A stretch of DNA of 45,567 nucleotides from Rickettsiales bacterium (lineage in GTDB: Bacteria; Pseudomonadota; Alphaproteobacteria; UBA8366). The translations under genes were made by a program, and so were the position numbers. The stretch lies in contig PBOZ01000047.1 in NCBI GenBank assembly GCA_002724555.1, positions 1-45,567 on the forward strand, given 5' to 3'. The notes under the pieces are model-generated. The model was not told where the DNA came from. It made no database searches and worked only from the letters and a program-made list of their open reading frames with translations. Below, piece by piece: positions 670 to 38,248 of this stretch (the first letter of the stretch is position 1; every line of letters begins with the position of its first letter).

Positions 670-2403
670 TCAAATTACGCACATATCCCCGCTGGGGCCG
701 AGCTCCAGTTCTGCTTCCGTGACTAAGTTCTCCCAATTCGTGGGTTTTCCGATTTCGCGACAAATGACCGCCGGCGACATAGCTTGCATCCAGAAGTTAT
801 GTGTCGGATGCGCACCGCCTGCGACAATAACGATGATCTGGTCCGACGATTTTGATATGGGCCATAATTCTTCATTTGCTGAAGCGATCGTCTCGGGTTC
901 GGCAGCGGCTTCGATCCATTGCTTGAGGCCTGTTTCGCGGACGACCGATTGCGGTACTTTCGAATGTTCCCAAAGGAATTCCTTGACCGCTTGCTTTGAT
1001 GTCCAGCCGAGTTTGTTCAGCTGCATTGCCACGGGGCGGGGTATCAAAAGCGCGCCTGGAGTGCCATTTGCCCAGCCGTGGGCATAGTGCACACAGGAGC
1101 TTCCGAGATAGCTCGCTACCCGCCGTAGACTCTGTTCAGCCTCCTCCATCGGCTCTTCCTTGCCGACACCCCGTCGCACGATGTTGGAGGCGCTGGTGCC
1201 GACATAAACAGTTACCATGTTTATGTCTTCTGACTTTCCACCAAAATCCTTACTGACTGGCTGCCAGCCTGCTGGCAAGCCCTCCTCATCTTCTGCAAAG
1301 ACGGCATTCGTGTAACGCATGCCGCCAAAAATTGCCATTGTTCCGACACCTGCTAAAGCGCCTCCAACATTCTGCTGCAAGAGACGTAAGGCACGTCCGA
1401 TACTGGCGCCCGCTGGATGCTGAGGGTCGGGGCCTAACAAGCCAAAACCGGAATTGAGACGGATTTCTTTTGCTATCGGGCCGTTGACGATAATCACGGG
1501 GAAGGTGCTCCCAGACGTCGCCTGCAACTTGTCGTGCTCAAGTGCTGGGTCGAGGAAGGCATCGACAGCGGCAATTAAAACAGGCAGGTATTCCGGTCGC
1601 CCACCCGCCATGGCCAAAGAGACGGCGATCGTCTCAACTGTTGCGATACCGCCTTTTGGCATGATTTTGCCAACAATATGGTCGCGTGGTAGTTCCGTGC
1701 CTTTTAAGATCCATTCGACACGTTCGCTGGTCGGCGGACTGACTGGTAGACCATCGCCCCAGGTGTTTCGCAGAAACAGTTGGTTCATCTGGTCCGTTGC
1801 GGCTTCGTACCCGTTTGCCTCGATACGGATTTTGTCAGGCTGGCGCATGCCTGTTTCTGTTGTCTTCGGTTGCCAATTGGTTAACCCAGCACAGAAATCG
1901 GCAGCACGTGCCTCGACTGGTGAGATGTTGCTGTCTACCAAGAACTGGTCAATTGGGAAATCGACCATTGAAAGTTCACGATCGAGGCCCAATCCGGCAG
2001 CGCCGTTGTAGAGGACACCTAAGAAATCAGTTCGGGCGAGGGTAACAGTAGGGATGCCCCTGCTTTCAATACGAGCGGCAACACGGCCGCATGCTGTCGC
2101 GCAGGCGCCTCAAGAGGCGTTCCCTATAACTACCGCGTCGACCCCGCTGGCTTCTATTTGATCGACGGCCGCTTCCGTATCCATCAATGTATTGCCCATT
2201 GGGAATTCGGACTCGGCGATTAGTGTTGCCGTTGGGTATTGCTTAGCCAACCAATTTCTAAGCATTGGCAGCATCCGGTGGGCTTGCCACATATCGTTCG
2301 AGATAAAACCGATTGTTTTGCCGTCTAAGCTATCAAGGCGTGGCGCATGCAGCTGCGTGACCTCCGAAGAGCCTGACGGGTCGAAGACTTCTAAAGCGTC
2401 CAT
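670..2403 (-). CDS. UGSC-family selenoprotein with in-frame TGA (Sec98) and fused C-terminal domain
   Basis: I read one 577-residue gene interrupted by an in-frame TGA at 2110-2112. The first 97 codons end in VVIGNAS; after the TGA the same frame continues Gly-Ala-Cys and runs open to 670. Sec98 and Cys101 would form a redox pair in a U-x-x-C arrangement. This matches the UGSC selenoprotein family, known mainly from marine bacteria, with Ala replacing Ser. Residues 1 to about 150 form the UGSC-like domain. Residues from about 190 to 577, beginning near a WGDGLPVSPP stretch, form a second domain I cannot name. Both halves read as real protein, which argues against a simple frameshift or recent nonsense decay. 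The ATG at 2403 has a GAGG ribosome site six bases upstream. A candidate bacterial SECIS lies at 2075-2112. Without Sec decoding only the 97-residue stub would be made. A selenium-free alternative is a recent nonsense mutation of a Cys homologue; the hairpin and the motif position make that less likely. Confidence 0.85.
2075..2112 (-). promoter_or_regulatory. candidate bacterial SECIS element after the Sec codon
   Basis: In the mRNA the UGA (2112-2110) is followed after 19 nt by a perfect 5-bp GC stem (GCGGC at 2090-2086 with GCCGC at 2079-2075) closing a six-base loop, CGUGUU. A G occupies the second loop position, and the loop begins 24 nt after the UGA. The general bacterial SECIS model as I recall it asks for a short apical loop with a G in its first two bases and a UGA-to-loop spacing of roughly 16-37 nt. 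All three conditions hold. A weaker lower stem (C-G and G-U beyond a 2x2 internal loop) can extend it. Confidence 0.65.
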
Positions 2404-30961: not shown

Positions 30962-31657
30962 TTACCCATTTTCATCGATGGAGTATCCGAACCCTCTTAC
31001 GGTGCGGATGATATTGGGCGAATTGTTTCTATTGAGAGCTTTACGAAGTCGGCGAATATGGACGTCCACAGTTCTGCTCTCAACGTAAATATCTCGGCCC
31101 CACGCCCGGTCTAAAAGTTGTTCGCGAGAAAAAACTTGATGTGGGCGTTCCATCAATACCCGTAGCAGCCGAAATTCGGTTGGCCCAAGATTAACGATTG
31201 TATTTCCGCGCAGAACACGATGGTTAACTAGGTCGATACAGATGTCAGAATATTGCAGTTTTTCTTTTGTTAATTCGGGATGTGAGCGCCGCAAGACCGC
31301 TTGGACGCGCGCAATCATCTCGATTGGTGAATAGGGCTTCACCACGTAATCGTCAGCCCCGTTTTCAAGACCGCGAACGCGGTCTGCCTCTTCCCCCCGT
31401 GCTGTCAACATAATGACAGGCAGGGATTTTGTCCTTGGTTGTGCTTTCAGCCGGCGACAAATTTCAATCCCGGAGATATCCGGTAACATCCAGTCAAGGA
31501 TAACTAAGTCTGGCTCTTCTTCTTCCACCAAAATAAGTGCATCTTCGCCAGAAGGTGCCGTGGATGTCCGGAACCCCTTATCCTCTAAGTTATAACGGAG
31601 AACTTCGACTTGGGCTGCCTCGTCTTCCACAATCAATATAAGAGGCTTCATGGTCAT
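30962..31657 (-). CDS. phoB: phosphate regulon response regulator PhoB
   Basis: The 231-residue protein has a receiver domain with acidic pocket Glu11/Asp12, phosphoacceptor Asp55, Thr85 and Lys107, then an OmpR-type winged helix from about residue 130 with the FRLLRVLMERPHQVFSREQL stretch. Its start overlaps the phoU stop (ATGA), so the two are translationally coupled. The kinase PhoR is seven genes upstream. Phosphorylated PhoB should bind a Pho box and activate pst. Confidence 0.95.
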   Translation of the reverse strand: MTMKPLILIVEDEAAQVEVLRYNLEDKGFRTSTAPSGEDALILVEEEEPDLVILDWMLPDISGIEICRRLKAQPRTKSLPVIMLTARGEEADRVRGLENGADDYVVKPYSPIEMIARVQAVLRRSHPELTKEKLQYSDICIDLVNHRVLRGNTIVNLGPTEFRLLRVLMERPHQVFSREQLLDRAWGRDIYVESRTVDVHIRRLRKALNRNNSPNIIRTVRGFGYSIDENG

Positions 31658-32403
31658 TCGGCCTCTTTTAAATTCTTGCCATCTTCAAGTGTCACAATTG
31701 TCGAACTTGAGTTGTCTTCTTTCGGGCGTTCGTCTGCGGGCATCTTGCCATGAACCATAAAATGCACTTGCTCAGCGATACCCGTGGTGTGGTCTCCGAC
31801 CCGCTCAATGTTTTTTGCAACGAAGAGCAAGTGCGTACAAGGCGTGATGTTGCGAGGGTCCTCCATCATATAGGTTAATAGCTCTCGGAATAAGCTGGTA
31901 TGCAGCAGATCGACTTCGCGATCACGTTTTCGGACGTCATCGGCTTTGTTGGCATCTCGCTCGATATAGGCATCCAGCGTGTTTTTGATCATCTCTTGAA
32001 CCAACTCTCCCATCCGGGACAGCGAATTCAGCGCTCCGTCCATCAAAGGGTTTTCGTCGAGACCGATGGTTCTTTTTGAAATGTTTTTCGCGTAATCACC
32101 AATCCGTTCGATGATACTAGAAATTTTGATTGCCGATATAACGATACGAAGGTCGTCGGCCATCGGTTGGCGCAAGGCAAGAATTTTTACGGTAAACTCG
32201 TAGATGGCTTCCTCAAGAGCATCGATCCGCTTGTCGGCTGGAACGATCCGTTCAGCTGCTGCGACGTCTCGCATACACAAAGCCTGGATACTTTGATGCA
32301 GCTGTAATTCTGCAAGGCCGCCCATCTCTGCGATCATGTTATCGAGTTTGAGGAGGTCGGTATCGAAGGATGAAACGATGTGGTCGCTATTTTCATTGCT
32401 CAT
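31654..32403 (-). CDS. phoU: phosphate signalling protein PhoU
   Basis: The 249-residue protein consists of two PhoU three-helix repeats, with MAEMGGLAELQLHQSIQAL at the start and ERIGDYAKNISKRTI and ERVGDHTTGIAEQVHFM as the two metal-binding helix motifs. It links Pst transport state to PhoR and restrains the Pho response when phosphate is sufficient. It lies 17 bases after pstB and overlaps phoB. Confidence 0.95.
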   Translation of the reverse strand: MSNENSDHIVSSFDTDLLKLDNMIAEMGGLAELQLHQSIQALCMRDVAAAERIVPADKRIDALEEAIYEFTVKILALRQPMADDLRIVISAIKISSIIERIGDYAKNISKRTIGLDENPLMDGALNSLSRMGELVQEMIKNTLDAYIERDANKADDVRKRDREVDLLHTSLFRELLTYMMEDPRNITPCTHLLFVAKNIERVGDHTTGIAEQVHFMVHGKMPADERPKEDNSSSTIVTLEDGKNLKEAE

Positions 32404-32420
32404 CTTAGAAGTGCCCCTGG

Positions 32421-33245
32421 TTAACCAAATCGGCCAGTAATGTAGTCTTGTGTTCTTTGCTCTCGCGGATTGGTGAATATTAGTTCTGTATCACCAAATT
32501 CTACCAAATTACCCAGATGGAAGAACGCTGTCCTTTGAGAGACCCGAGCCGCTTGTTGCATTGAGTGGGTAACGATAACGATCGTAAAATTCTCACGTAA
32601 TTCGTCGATCAATTCTTCTATTCTTGCAGTTGCGATGGGGTCTAGCGCTGAACATGGCTCATCCATCAAGATGACTTCGGGGCTCACAGCAATTGCGCGT
32701 GCAATGCATAGACGTTGTTGCTGGCCCCCAGAAAGACCTGTCCCAGGTTCTTGCAGTCGCTCCTTTACTTCGCCCCAAAGGCCAGCGCGTCGCAAACTGT
32801 TCTCGACAATTTCATCTGTTTCACTACTTCCGGATACAAGACCATGAATTCGCGGACCATAAGCGACATTGTCGTAGATCGACTTTGGAAACGGATTTGG
32901 TTTCTGAAATACCATGCCAACCAAAGCGCGAAGTTGCACGACATCGACGTCGCTGCTGTTTATATCATTGCCGTCCAACTTAATTGTACCGGTAACGGTG
33001 CAACCCTCAATCACGTCGTTCATGCGGTTCATGCATCGCAGAAACGTCGACTTACCGCAACCGGATGGCCCGATCAGGGAAGTTACAGCTTGGGAACCGA
33101 TCTCTAGATCAACACCGAATAGCGCCTGTTTGCCACTGTAGAAAACATCCACGCTGCGCGCCGTTATTTTAGGTTTGAGATTACGGTCTACGACAGGCGC
33201 GGAATTATCAAAATTTTGAACTGATGAGTATTTATGTGCTGACAT
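32421..33245 (-). CDS. pstB: phosphate ABC transporter ATP-binding protein PstB
   Basis: The 274-residue ATPase has Walker [10 protein letters not shown] at residues 59-67, the [19 protein letters not shown] stretch specific to PstB, signature LSGGQQQR at 171-178 and Walker B VILMDEP at 191-197. I chose the ATG at 33245, which overlaps the pstA stop (TAATG); the longer open frame adds 43 unrelated residues. Confidence 0.95.
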
Positions 33246-34558
33246 TACCAATGTTTCTCGAATTTTTGACGCAAGATTTGTGCAGTTAGGTTCATACAAA
33301 CCAGAAAACCAATGAGAACGATGATTGCAGCTGAAGTCCGTTCGACAAATGCTCGCTCCGGACTGTCCGCCCATAGGTAGACTTGCACAGGCAACACGGT
33401 TGCTGGATCGGTCGGACTTTGCGGGACATCAACGATAAACGCCACCATGCCGATCATCAGCAGTGGTGCACTCTCGCCTAACGCGCGCGCCATGCCAATG
33501 ATGGTACCCGTCAGTATGCCGGGCATTGCTAGCGGTGCAACATGGTCGGTAACAACCTGCATGCGGCTGGCCCCCACGCCGAGCGCAGCTTCTCGGATCG
33601 ACGGTGGCACCGATTTGAGTGCAGCCCTAGAGGCAATGATGATTGTTGGTAAGGTCATTAGAGCAAGAACCATTCCGCCCACCAGAGGTGCGGACCGCGG
33701 CAAACCGAAGAAGTTTAAAAAAACCGCGAGACCAAGCAGGCCAAATACGATAGATGGCACTGCCGCTAGATTATTGATGTTTACTTCGATGATGTCGGTC
33801 CAGCGATTTTGCGGAGCAAACTCTTCGAGATATATCGCAGTCATAACGCCAAACGGGAAGGAAAGTAGAAGCGTGATGGCAAGGGTGAGAAGAGAGCCAA
33901 TGACAGCGCCCAAAACACCGGCCTGTTCCGGATCCCTGCTGTCGCCCGCCGTAAAAAAGCGTGTGTTGAAATCAGCCCTTATTAAACCGGCCTCGCGCAA
34001 GTTTTCATACCAACTGATTTCTTTGTTGTTTACACGACGCTCAGTCTCCGGACGGGTGGTGTCGATACCGCCTTTGTTAAGGATATCGATATTGGCTGCT
34101 GCGGAAATCCATATTGCTTGGGTCTTGCCAATAAGTGATGGATCTTTCTGAACCATCCGATAAAGCTCAAACGGCGACCCTGCACTTACGATTCGATAAA
34201 GCTTCCGTTTGTCTCGTCTTTTCTGAACATTTGGGAATTGCTTTCGTAAGCTCGTCTTAATTAAACGACCGTAGTCTGCGCCGCGGAGGGTTTGTTCGTC
34301 CCGTTTCCCTGTCGGATCAATTACGTCTTCGTCAAAATATATTTCAAGTTTTACCTCAGTTTGGATAAAGGCAGTGTGACCTTTATAGATTATGTTGCCG
34401 AGCATAATTACTAGGAAAGCCAAAGCTGCACAGACAGCTAATAAACCATATAATTTAAAGCGTTGTTCTGCCGCATACCGTTTTTTTAAACCCCGGCGAA
34501 CAATATTTGCGGTTTCGCGTGAGGGGCGGAGACCGCTGTCCATTATCGTATCATTCAT
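33245..34558 (-). CDS. pstA: phosphate ABC transporter permease PstA, long form
   Basis: The 437-residue permease is much longer than the roughly 290 residues of E. coli PstA. After the first membrane segment comes a soluble insert of about 150 residues, as in PstA proteins with a DUF3333-type domain. It is followed by the five-helix permease core with the [13 protein letters not shown] coupling motif. The ATG at 34558 overlaps the end of pstC by eight bases; the open frame from 34642 is less likely. Confidence 0.93.
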
Positions 34559-35933
34559 ATTTTTCTCTGTATTTCTGCACGACCCGCAACGCGATAAAAT
34601 TGAGGCACAGTGTGATCGCGAATAGAGTGAGGCCAAGTGCAAAGGCAGCTAAGGTCTTTGCGCTATCAAATTCTTGGTCGCCAACGAGTAAAGTAACAAT
34701 TTGAACGGTTACGGTAGTAACGGCTTCAAAGGGGTTGGCTGTTAGATTTGCCGAGAGACCTGCCGCCATTACTACGATCATCGTTTCGCCTATGGCCCGG
34801 GAAACGGCTAGTAGCACGCTGCCTACGATACCAGGAAGGGCGGCCGGTAATATGACCCGTAAAATTGTTTCGGACCTTGTTGCACCCAAGCCATAAGAGC
34901 CATCGCGCATGGCTTGCGGCACGGCGGTAATTACGTCATCGGAAAGCGAAGAGATGAAAGGGATGATCATGATCCCCATCACGACACCAGCTGCTAATGC
35001 ACTTTCTGACGAGATAGAAAGCCCAAGTAAACCGCCGCTATCACGCAAAAATGGAGCGACCGTAAGCGCGGCAAAAAACCCATAAACGACGGTTGGAATG
35101 CCCGCTAGTATTTCCAAAAGCGGTTTGGCAATCTCGCGAAACTTTGAGTGTGCATATTCAGCTAAGTATACGGCGGACATCAGCCCTATAGGCACTGCAA
35201 CGATCATTGCGATAAAGCTGATGAGGGCTGTACCGGCGAAAATTGGTACGGCCCCAAATGAACCATCGGACGCGACCTGATCCTCTCGCAACGCGATTTG
35301 TGGGCTCCATTCAAGACCGAAAAAAAATTCGATGGGAGTTACTTTTTCAAAAAACCGAATTGATTCGAAGATAAGTGATAAAACGATCCCAATGGTTGTT
35401 AGAATGGCAATAGTCGACGCGATGATTAGAAGGATCATTCCGACACGCTCAACAAGAATTCGAGCCCGGAAATGGGGAGCAATATACTTTATCCCCAAAG
35501 TTAGTCCGACTATGGCGAGATTAAGAATTAATATGAATTGCGCAGTTCCGCTTGTCCGCGATACAGCACTGTATCTTTCGGCTGCTATTATGACGGCGGG
35601 GTCTGCTTCGCTGATTCCGATGTTTCCGGCCGCAATGTTGCGAACATCATTCATCAACAGATTAAGTTGCGCTTGAGATTGATTTTGAAATTCTACCGGT
35701 AGTTCAGATAACACGAGTGTGGTGACGATTAATGGCTCTGAAATGATCCAAATAAAAATGATTAATAACGATGGAATGCTGCACCAGATTGCTACGTATA
35801 GGCCATGATAGATTGGCAGAGAATGAAGTTTACTGAGGTGGCCTTCGCTGGCTTTAACGGCGCGGTTTCGCCCCATCCGGAAACCGAAAAAAGTCAGAGC
35901 GATAAGGACGATGAAGATAGTGTAAGATTGCAT
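34551..35933 (-). CDS. pstC: phosphate ABC transporter permease PstC, long form
   Basis: The 460-residue permease exceeds the roughly 320 residues of E. coli PstC because of two extra N-terminal membrane segments and a soluble insert (about residues 80-125). The permease core follows, with the coupling motif YGLGATRSETILRVILPAALPG. This form is typical of Alphaproteobacteria. It pairs with the long PstA. The gap to pstS is 92 bases and holds a strong hairpin; the ribosome site before its ATG is weak. Confidence 0.92.
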   Translation of the reverse strand: MQSYTIFIVLIALTFFGFRMGRNRAVKASEGHLSKLHSLPIYHGLYVAIWCSIPSLLIIFIWIISEPLIVTTLVLSELPVEFQNQSQAQLNLLMNDVRNIAAGNIGISEADPAVIIAAERYSAVSRTSGTAQFILILNLAIVGLTLGIKYIAPHFRARILVERVGMILLIIASTIAILTTIGIVLSLIFESIRFFEKVTPIEFFFGLEWSPQIALREDQVASDGSFGAVPIFAGTALISFIAMIVAVPIGLMSAVYLAEYAHSKFREIAKPLLEILAGIPTVVYGFFAALTVAPFLRDSGGLLGLSISSESALAAGVVMGIMIIPFISSLSDDVITAVPQAMRDGSYGLGATRSETILRVILPAALPGIVGSVLLAVSRAIGETMIVVMAAGLSANLTANPFEAVTTVTVQIVTLLVGDQEFDSAKTLAAFALGLTLFAITLCLNFIALRVVQKYREKYE

Positions 35934-35986
35934 TTATTATTTTGCGGGTGCGTCAGATATGAATTTGATTTTCTACCAAAAGAGGG

Positions 35987-36018
35987 GTGAGCAGCCGGGG
36001 CGGACCCCAGCAGCTCAC
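35987..36018 (-). promoter_or_regulatory. stable UNCG-type hairpin between pstS and pstC
   Basis: In the mRNA a 14-position stem (one U-U mismatch and one G-U pair) closes with G(UCCG)C, a tetraloop of the UNCG class. It begins seven bases after the pstS stop codon and is followed by CCCTCTTTT. Such hairpins often protect the upstream message or partly stop transcription, raising the binding protein over the permeases. Confidence 0.65.
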
Positions 36019-36025
36019 TTTATTT

Positions 36026-37072
36026 TTACATAGACAGATTGTTCAGTGACATGCCGTCGTTCTTGAACCGTTTGCGCTCGTCACCTGGCATTGGAATTAA
36101 GCCACGGTCGGATAGATAACCCTCGTTGCCCCACGCTTTATCACTTGTGAACTCAGCCACGTATTCTTTCATACCTGGAATTTTGCCGACATGTGCCTTT
36201 TTCACATAGAAATAGAGTGGACGAGAGACCGGATATTTCTGTTTTGCGATATTCTCGAACTCAGGTGCAACGCCGTTGATCGGACTGCCTTGAATCTTAT
36301 CAGAATTTTGATCTAGGAAGCTGTATCCGAAAACCCCAAAGGCATTGGGGTTGGCTTCTAGTTTTTGGACTATGAGATTATCATTCTCTCCCGCTTCAAT
36401 GTAAGCACCGTCTTCGCGAATGCCTCGGCATAAGGCTTTATATTTTTTCTTGTCTTTCTTCTTCATCGCTTTCAGCGTCGGGAATGTCTTGCAACCGCCT
36501 TCAATGGCAAGCTCGTTGAAGGCATCACGCGTGCCAGAAGTCGGCGGTGGACCAAGGACTTCGATCTTTGTATTTGGTAATGATGGATCGATGTCTTTCC
36601 AGGTCTTATTCGGATTGGCGATTAGTTTACCGCCTTCCTTATTGTTTTCCGGAACTTGTTTAGCTAGCGCCAGATACAGTTGCTTTAAAGTAACTTTCAT
36701 TTGTGGTGCTTTTTTGGAGTTCGAGAAAACTATTCCGTCATAGCCGATTTTAATCTCGATTATTTCATTGATACCATTCTTGGCACATTTCGTGACCTCG
36801 GACTTCTTTATCCGGCGCGAAGCGTTTGTGATATCGGGATGCTCGATGCCAATACCAGAACAGAATAGTTTCAGGCCGCCCCCGGAACCTGTGGATTCGA
36901 TCTTTGGCGTCTTAAAACCGCTAATTTTGCCGAATTGTTCAGCGACTACCGTGGCGAAAGGATAAACCGTTGAGGATCCAACAATGTTAATTTGGTCGCG
37001 TGCTTCGGCAGCGTTCGCCATTACAAATGCGGCCATGGCACTAATGCTATAAAATGTTCGTTTCATTTTCAT
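36026..37072 (-). CDS. pstS: periplasmic phosphate-binding protein PstS
   Basis: The 348-residue protein has an N-terminal signal peptide (KMKR, a hydrophobic core, and an Ala-x-Ala type site ending near residue 24). The phosphate-binding loops follow: IVGSSTVYPFA at about 30-40, TGSGGGLKLFCSG, and PTSGTRDAF. I chose the ATG at 37072, with GAGAAAAA upstream; the open frame from 37123 would place charged residues before the signal. It should feed PstCAB and be the most expressed gene of the operon. Confidence 0.95.
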   Translation of the reverse strand: MKMKRTFYSISAMAAFVMANAAEARDQINIVGSSTVYPFATVVAEQFGKISGFKTPKIESTGSGGGLKLFCSGIGIEHPDITNASRRIKKSEVTKCAKNGINEIIEIKIGYDGIVFSNSKKAPQMKVTLKQLYLALAKQVPENNKEGGKLIANPNKTWKDIDPSLPNTKIEVLGPPPTSGTRDAFNELAIEGGCKTFPTLKAMKKKDKKKYKALCRGIREDGAYIEAGENDNLIVQKLEANPNAFGVFGYSFLDQNSDKIQGSPINGVAPEFENIAKQKYPVSRPLYFYVKKAHVGKIPGMKEYVAEFTSDKAWGNEGYLSDRGLIPMPGDERKRFKNDGMSLNNLSM

Positions 37073-37154
37073 TTTATTTTTCTCGTCTGTGGTTAGAGCA
37101 ACGATGACCAGGACGTTGGTCACCGCGAAAATATTCAGACGCAGTTTCTTTTCT

Positions 37155-37172
37155 ATGACTGTTTTGTTACGA
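37155..37172 (-). promoter_or_regulatory. candidate Pho box upstream of pstS
   Basis: Read on the minus strand, TCGTAACAAAACAGTCAT matches 13 of 18 positions of the enterobacterial-style Pho box (two 7-bp repeats separated by AAAA); the second repeat is nearly perfect. It lies 82 bases before the pstS start, in the 105-base gap after phoR. Confidence 0.5.
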
Positions 37173-37177
37173 TTTTA

Positions 37178-38248
37178 TTACGAAGGCAGAGTTGCTTCTG
37201 TATTTTCTTCGCTGGGTAAGTAAACGCGGAAAATGGTACCTTCTCCGACGATGCTGTCGATTGCCAATCGACCTCGATGGCGATTGACGATGTGCTTTGC
37301 TATAGCCAATCCCAACCCCGTCCCACCCATTGTTCGAGAGCGGCCCTTGTCCACACGATAAAATCTCTCTGTGAGACGCGGGAGATGCTCCGCTGAAATT
37401 CCATCACCTTGGTCCGCTACTGAGACCATAATTCCGGGTCCACCTCGGTCGGGGATTCGAGAAATTCTTTCAATATCGACACTAATACTTGTGTTCTCTG
37501 GACAATATTTAACCGCGTTATCGATCAAATTAAGGAAGACTTCCATCAATTCATCGCGATTTCCCAGGACTGGATACTTTCCGTTTAATGTCGGGAGATT
37601 TACGTCTATATGACGCTCTGCCGCTCGCCCCGATAGGGTGTCGTGAACCTCTGCCAACAACTCAAAAATATCGACGGTTTCGTCCGGCAAAATATGTTCG
37701 CTGGCCTCAACCTTTGATAATGAGAGGAGGTCATCAATTAGCCGTGCCATTCGTTTCGATTCGTTATCCATTATTCTCAGAAATCGGTCACGGGCATCCA
37801 CATCGTCTCTTGCGGCGCCCCGTAGGGTTTCTATGAAACCGATAAGAGAAGACAGCGGTGAACGCAGTTCATGACTGACGTTGGCCACAAAGTCTGCACG
37901 CATTTGGTCAGCGTTCCGTGTTGCGGTCGTGTCATGCATAGTTAATATGGCGTCGGCTGTACTTTCGTTCGTCGCCGTTAGAGATGCGATCTGGATGTCA
38001 AAGCTGCGCCAGACTGATGCCAGGAGCGAAATGCTGATTTGGCGTTTTTGTTCATCAGCGATTACTGCATTTACGGCATCGAGTATTTCCGGATGCCGAA
38101 GTGCGATTGCGAGCGACCTTCCCGCAATTTCTGCCCCGAGTAATTCTTTGGCGGCGCTATTTGCAGCGACAATTGTTTTTTGCGAATCAAGCAAGAGCAC
38201 TGGGTTTGGGAGAGCGTCTAAAATTACCATAGTGGTGGCAATTTCCAT
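37178..38248 (-). CDS. phoR: phosphate regulon sensor histidine kinase PhoR, no membrane segment
   Basis: The 356-residue kinase has a PAS-like domain at about 6-105, the dimerisation helix with His126 in FVANVSHELRSPL, and the ATPase domain with Asn244 (N box), DQGDGIS (G1, about 279-285) and GGTGLGL (G2). Most PhoR proteins have one or two N-terminal membrane helices; I see none, so it may be held at the membrane through PhoU and PstB. It precedes pstS and heads the locus, though the Pho box suggests a second promoter for pst. Confidence 0.88.
   Translation of the reverse strand: MEIATTMVILDALPNPVLLLDSQKTIVAANSAAKELLGAEIAGRSLAIALRHPEILDAVNAVIADEQKRQISISLLASVWRSFDIQIASLTATNESTADAILTMHDTTATRNADQMRADFVANVSHELRSPLSSLIGFIETLRGAARDDVDARDRFLRIMDNESKRMARLIDDLLSLSKVEASEHILPDETVDIFELLAEVHDTLSGRAAERHIDVNLPTLNGKYPVLGNRDELMEVFLNLIDNAVKYCPENTSISVDIERISRIPDRGGPGIMVSVADQGDGISAEHLPRLTERFYRVDKGRSRTMGGTGLGLAIAKHIVNRHRGRLAIDSIVGEGTIFRVYLPSEENTEATLPS

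Follow-up and report, generated by a model that had tools for sequence, protein, structure and literature searches.

Organization of the gene

The locus described here raises a simple question: does an in-frame TGA separate two genes, or does it encode selenocysteine (Sec) within one? It lies in a stretch of 45,567 nucleotides (the window; contig PBOZ01000047.1 of the Rickettsiales bacterium assembly GCA_002724555.1), where the minus strand from 2403 to 670 forms a single frame, with an ATG at 2403-2401 and a TGA stop at 672-670, whose sole interruption is a TGA at 2112-2110 (codon 98). With this TGA read as Sec (U), the gene at 670-2403 gives a protein of 577 residues, Sec included, with one internal TGA. 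The codon is set in VVIGNAS-U-GACATACG (in a longer stretch, VVIGNASUGACATACGRVAARIES), and Cys101 and Cys105 come after the proposed Sec. A plain listing of open reading frames (ORFs) on the minus strand yields two entries, a stub of 97 residues at 2403-2110 and, from an internal TTG, an ORF of 440 residues at 1992-670. The first-pass annotation of this DNA, which names no strand, had placed two frames, 2113-2403 and 670-2109, in phase and split only by the TGA at 2110-2112, and had predicted just such a stub and internally started protein from routine gene callers; the ORF listing and the read-through translation agree with it on both counts. By splitting the gene, standard gene calling conceals residues 1 to 97, the Sec, and the connection to a C-terminal partner domain.

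An open frame is also what would be seen if the TGA were decoded as some other amino acid, by a change of code or a suppressor tRNA, and nothing beyond the open frame favors that reading, which we regard as exceedingly improbable. TGA is the stop codon of 14 of the 38 window ORFs of at least 200 residues and of three of the fused genes themselves, a tRNA-Sec with anticodon TCA is present, and the residue that exchanges with the TGA is Cys. TGA as an ordinary sense codon was ruled out because it terminates many window ORFs. Whether the terminal TGA (672-670) could encode a further Sec was also considered: the gene's own stop is TGA and most orthologues have TAA or TAG there, and since 24 of the 27 fused genes stop with TAA or TAG, this candidate was rejected.

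Conservation of the TGA and exchange with cysteine

A scan of the 60 nearest genomes recovered 25 full-length homologues, spread over 20 other genomes that all belong to two families of the same order, and a scan of named genomes added one more (L044). When their translations were aligned with that of the window gene, each of the 26 (45 to 91% identical) had a single TGA, aligned with codon 98, and Gly-x-Cys directly follows it in every homologue and in the window gene. Divergence at codon positions 1, 2, and 3 is 0.31, 0.20, and 0.58 before the TGA and 0.28, 0.20, and 0.56 after it, which is coding-like on both sides, and divergence in the C-terminal domain is likewise of the coding type. Since 26 homologues in other genomes share the same single TGA, it is neither a chance occurrence nor a sequencing error, the latter being a possibility that the first-pass annotation had itself raised.

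Across 385 genomes of the class, matches to the Pfam UGSC family (PF24696) number 101, distributed over 38 genomes; 96 of the matches contain one TGA and 5 contain none. One of these five is a fragment that stops short of the site; the other four (L139 to L142) are informative, and all have Cys at the Sec position, placed by alignment for L139, L140, and L141 and by motif for L142. The suggestion that Cys would take over in species that lack the selenium machinery is borne out as to the position of the Cys, which is exact, but only in part as to the loss of machinery: two of the three Cys-only genomes (G366 and G403) are without selA, but the third (G287) has it.

A true stop at codon 98, whether between two proteins, in a decaying gene, or through sequencing error, would find some favor in the internal TTG, which could initiate a second ORF, and in three selenium-decoding genes not found in this assembly (see below). 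Against it stand the recurrence of this TGA in 26 independent homologues, divergence of the coding type on either side of the codon, Cys in place of TGA in uninterrupted homologues, and the presence of selC. We consider a true stop very improbable.

SECIS-like hairpin and synonymous constraint

Synonymous variation among the orthologues averages 0.55 over the gene and falls to 0.19 at codons 104 to 115 (2059-2094, minus strand), the lowest of 477 segments of twelve scored codons each. This minimum lies just past the TGA and overlies a SECIS-like hairpin, GCGGC-CGUGUU-GCCGC at 2075-2090 on the minus strand, whose loop G is about 26 bases 3' of the UGA. In the form GCGGC-CGUGYU-GYCGC the hairpin recurs in every orthologue aligned, altered by a single wobble change, and it is also the alifold consensus. 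Because the stem hardly varies, there is no covariation signal to be read from it. The single-sequence folding energy of the region is unremarkable (z = 0.20) and uninformative for a SECIS element. An alternative, longer stem (CAGCAUG/CGUGCUG) is favored by some single folds but is missing in some orthologues, and it was set aside.

Selenium-decoding machinery

If the gene is decoded as proposed, a selenium-decoding apparatus is implied elsewhere in the genome, as the first-pass annotation pointed out. The host genome (G000) is a metagenome-assembled genome of 2.56 Mb in 110 contigs, 65% complete. It contains a tRNA-Sec gene (selC; anticodon TCA, 79.8 bits), but selA, selB, and selD were not found in it, so that within this assembly the implication holds for the tRNA only. 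It holds more fully among relatives. In the two genomes of the same genus, selA, selB, and selD all score above the cut-offs, and among the 22 other genomes of the two gene-bearing families (f1 and f2), selA is found in 22 and selB above its cut-off in 19. Among 36 relatives in which the protein has no match, selA is also missing from 34; G050 and G057 have selA and selB although the selenoprotein gene is absent. Class-wide, the TGA form occurs in 34 other genomes; selA is present in 33 of these, and the exception (G054) is 77% complete. The gaps in the host genome probably reflect the incompleteness of its assembly. Absence of both selB and selC had been put forward as grounds for giving up the selenoprotein reading; because selC is present, those grounds fall away, with selB not found.

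Among the relatives (loci L149, L150, and L151), selD itself carries an in-frame TGA in some, in others SelD is contained in a frame of about 760 residues, perhaps an Ndh-SelD fusion, and G003 and G007 have both kinds.

The UGSC domain

Residues 5 to 157 (1933-2391, minus strand) match PF24696 at 77.3 bits, well above the cut-off of 25, and the same family is matched by 20 of 20 aligned members. The first-pass annotation had taken codon 98 for the site where UGSC proteins carry Sec, followed by Gly-Ala-Cys, and both the Pfam match and the UGAC motif agree. The score against the NCBIfam equivalog NF041046 is 44.9 bits, under its cut-off of 125; by these profile scores, the protein is a divergent, fused branch of the UGSC family that stands outside the equivalog.

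An AlphaFold2 (AF2) model of the fused protein has a mean pLDDT of 79.7. Its UGSC part shows alternating beta and alpha elements, with Sec98 between a strand (90-96) and a helix (99-113). Foldseek searches with the whole model returned weak matches that include Rossmann, flavodoxin, and periplasmic-binding folds, none with E below 0.001, and there was no thioredoxin fold among the top 50. The modeled topology and the lack of thioredoxin among those matches argue against the thioredoxin-like (Trx-like) fold proposed for UGSC in 2008 (PMC2398784), the domain appearing rather to be Rossmann/flavodoxin-like. The PDB was searched by sequence with three queries (whole protein, UGSC domain, and partner domain), and none produced a match below an E of about 0.1.

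The partner domain

The first-pass annotation was silent on the two-domain architecture of the protein and on the linkage of its second domain to UGSC. Residues 190 to 577 (673-1836, minus strand), which end in GDMCVI with a conserved Cys575, constitute a domain whose profile is found in 38 of the 385 class genomes, exactly the 38 that have UGSC. Among 30 loci fetched through UGSC alone (L099 to L128, mostly with 1.5 kb of flank), the partner domain adjoins or is fused to UGSC in 28; in the remaining cases it lies about 0.9 kb farther upstream (L117) or on another contig (L116, in G108). We used this set in place of a wider count (37 of 39) that included partner-fetched loci and duplicates. 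From these sequence comparisons, the C-terminal part of the window protein is a partner domain tied obligately to UGSC, which elsewhere is the product of a neighboring gene.

The host genome itself has four more, stand-alone UGSC genes with an in-frame TGA, on contigs C98, C1, C82, and C56 (L129, 5701-6228; L130, 6867-7382; L132, 7459-7968; and G000:C56:20767-21261). Each has a homologue of the window C-terminal domain immediately upstream on the same strand, and in three pairs the UGSC gene starts 11 to 30 bases past the partner stop.

Pfam offers no match to the partner domain up to E = 10, nor does NCBIfam over the domain, and the partners of the four host-genome pairs have neither over theirs. 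Modeled alone with AF2 it reaches a pLDDT of 86.5 and a pTM of 0.88, yet Foldseek finds nothing for it below E = 0.001 and no convincing PDB match. In some of the stand-alone partners the N-terminus bears a thioredoxin-like segment containing CPTC or CETC, which matches TIGR01068 weakly (E = 0.0024, below cut-off). At the C-terminus, many partners have a CxDC tail, and the fused proteins have a conserved C-x-I or similar ending. These C-terminal and thioredoxin-like cysteines suggest thiol recycling of the Sec.

Genomic context and paralogues

The window gene is flanked by a convergent gene for a hexapeptide-repeat protein (15-641) and a divergent ABC transporter cluster, and the gene order around the fused gene is the same in the same-genus genome G001. 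Between the ends of the two convergent genes there is an inverted repeat, GGGTAGAT...ATCTACCC (636-661), that looks like a terminator shared by them. Farther along the window, at 30962-38248 on the minus strand, the ORF sequences read as a gene run resembling a Pst/Pho phosphate-uptake operon.

The gene immediately upstream of the fusion in several genomes of family f2 (loci L043, L045, L046, L050, L137, and L138) codes for a GMC oxidoreductase (choline-dehydrogenase-like, 633 bits) and may hint at what the enzyme acts on. Near the stand-alone pairs of the host genome, a reading of the sequences, as distinct from family scans, picks out CoA-transferases, a Rieske oxygenase, a P450, GMC oxidoreductases, and an amidase. 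Such neighbors may point to candidate substrates for a UGSC enzyme.

Additional copies of the fusion occur among the relatives. A second, distant fused UGSC-partner protein with a TGA, 31% identical, is encoded in the same genus (L039/L134; G001:C34), and paralogues resembling it are found in G007, G017, G026, G029, G032, and G038. The fused gene is tandemly duplicated at L135 (G004:C1, 7858-11334) and also in G005, G008, G009, and G010, with the TGA in both copies; these genomes represent two genera of a single family.

Proposed mechanism

The single frame, the conserved TGA, the constrained hairpin, the exchange of Sec with Cys, the co-occurrence with Sec machinery, and the obligate partner together indicate that the gene almost certainly encodes one 577-residue selenoprotein with Sec at UGA98. 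That this selenoprotein is also a two-component redox enzyme, fused in the window gene, is probable but held with distinctly less assurance. Two components are indicated by the occurrence of both domains in the same 38 of 385 genomes, by the adjoining or fused arrangement at 28 of 30 loci, and by the gaps of 11 to 30 bases in three pairs; a redox role is indicated by the invariant UxxC, the thioredoxin-like CxxC on some partners, and the conserved C-terminal Cys.

We infer the following scheme for how Sec is inserted in this organism, how the redox cycle runs, and what each domain contributes. UGA98 would be decoded as Sec by tRNA-Sec and SelB, guided by the hairpin just downstream. The UGSC domain would place Sec98 at the end of a Rossmann-like beta-strand, near Cys101 and Cys105, and the C-terminal partner domain would hold or activate the substrate, completing the active site. 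The selenolate would reduce a small organic substrate and form a selenenylsulfide with a nearby Cys, which could then be reopened by thiols, either the conserved Cys575 or the N-terminal CxxC segment of many stand-alone partners. Several observations sit less easily with this scheme: the selA, selB, and selD genes not found in the host genome, the near-invariant stem and unremarkable folding energy of the hairpin, the retention of selA in the Cys-only G287, and the low score of the thioredoxin-like segment.

Alternatively, the Sec might serve as the carbon nucleophile of a reductive cleavage like that of glycine or proline reductase (GrdB/PrdB with GrdE/PrdA), and not take part in a thioredoxin-linked reduction of an oxidized group. 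The obligate two-component arrangement and the neighborhoods resembling small-molecule catabolism would suit such chemistry, and one fused orthologue (L026) matches the Gly_reductase family PF09338 around the Sec motif (E = 7e-5). That match, at 21.9 bits, falls short of the cut-off of 22.2; only 2 of 20 members reach E ≤ 1, PF07355 gave no match, and the partner domain matches no Grd or Prd family. We think a glycine reductase-type reaction, the chief alternative, rather unlikely, and prefer the two-component redox enzyme.

Comparison with known systems

In the GOS ocean metagenome, UGSC-containing proteins ranked among the selenoprotein families with most members (255 sequences), and fusions of UGSC with a domain termed Unknown_1 were reported in the same study (Zhang and Gladyshev 2008, PMC2398784), so this type of fusion is already known. 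From a comparison of architectures as described in the text alone, the window C-terminal domain is likely Unknown_1. A 2026 review still counts UGSC among the selenoproteins whose functions are largely uncharacterized (PMC13188914). With the known UGSC selenoproteins (PF24696; NF041046; PMC2398784) the window protein shares the UxxC Sec motif, the domain, the Sec/Cys exchange, and a link to bacterial Sec machinery, seen as tRNA-Sec in the host genome and as selA, selB, and selD in its relatives; it differs in having UGAC instead of UGSC and in matching NF041046 only below cut-off. We found no description of an obligate UGSC-partner pairing or operon in the literature searched, and we propose that the strict pairing, the two-component hypothesis, and the non-thioredoxin fold model are what the present analysis adds to the 2008 work. 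The strict pairing, the tight gene pairs, and the fusion offer a concrete handle on UGSC function.

Thioredoxin-fold selenoproteins have the UxxC redox motif in common with the window protein, whereas the model of its UGSC domain has a Rossmann/flavodoxin-like topology in which the Sec follows a central parallel strand.

In the GrdB/GrdE and PrdB/PrdA reductases, a UxxC-type selenoprotein works with a second subunit. The window protein resembles these glycine/betaine/sarcosine and D-proline reductases in pairing a UxxC selenoprotein with a second component and, in one orthologue, through the subthreshold PF09338 match, but differs from them in its partner domain. As a tentative proposal, which we put forward with rather little confidence, UGSC and its obligate partner could represent an unrecognized class of two-component selenoenzymes, present in multiple copies in selenium-using alphaproteobacteria and serving the catabolism of small organic molecules, with a partner fold absent from the PDB; the window gene would then be a natural fusion within a counterpart to the glycine and proline reductases.
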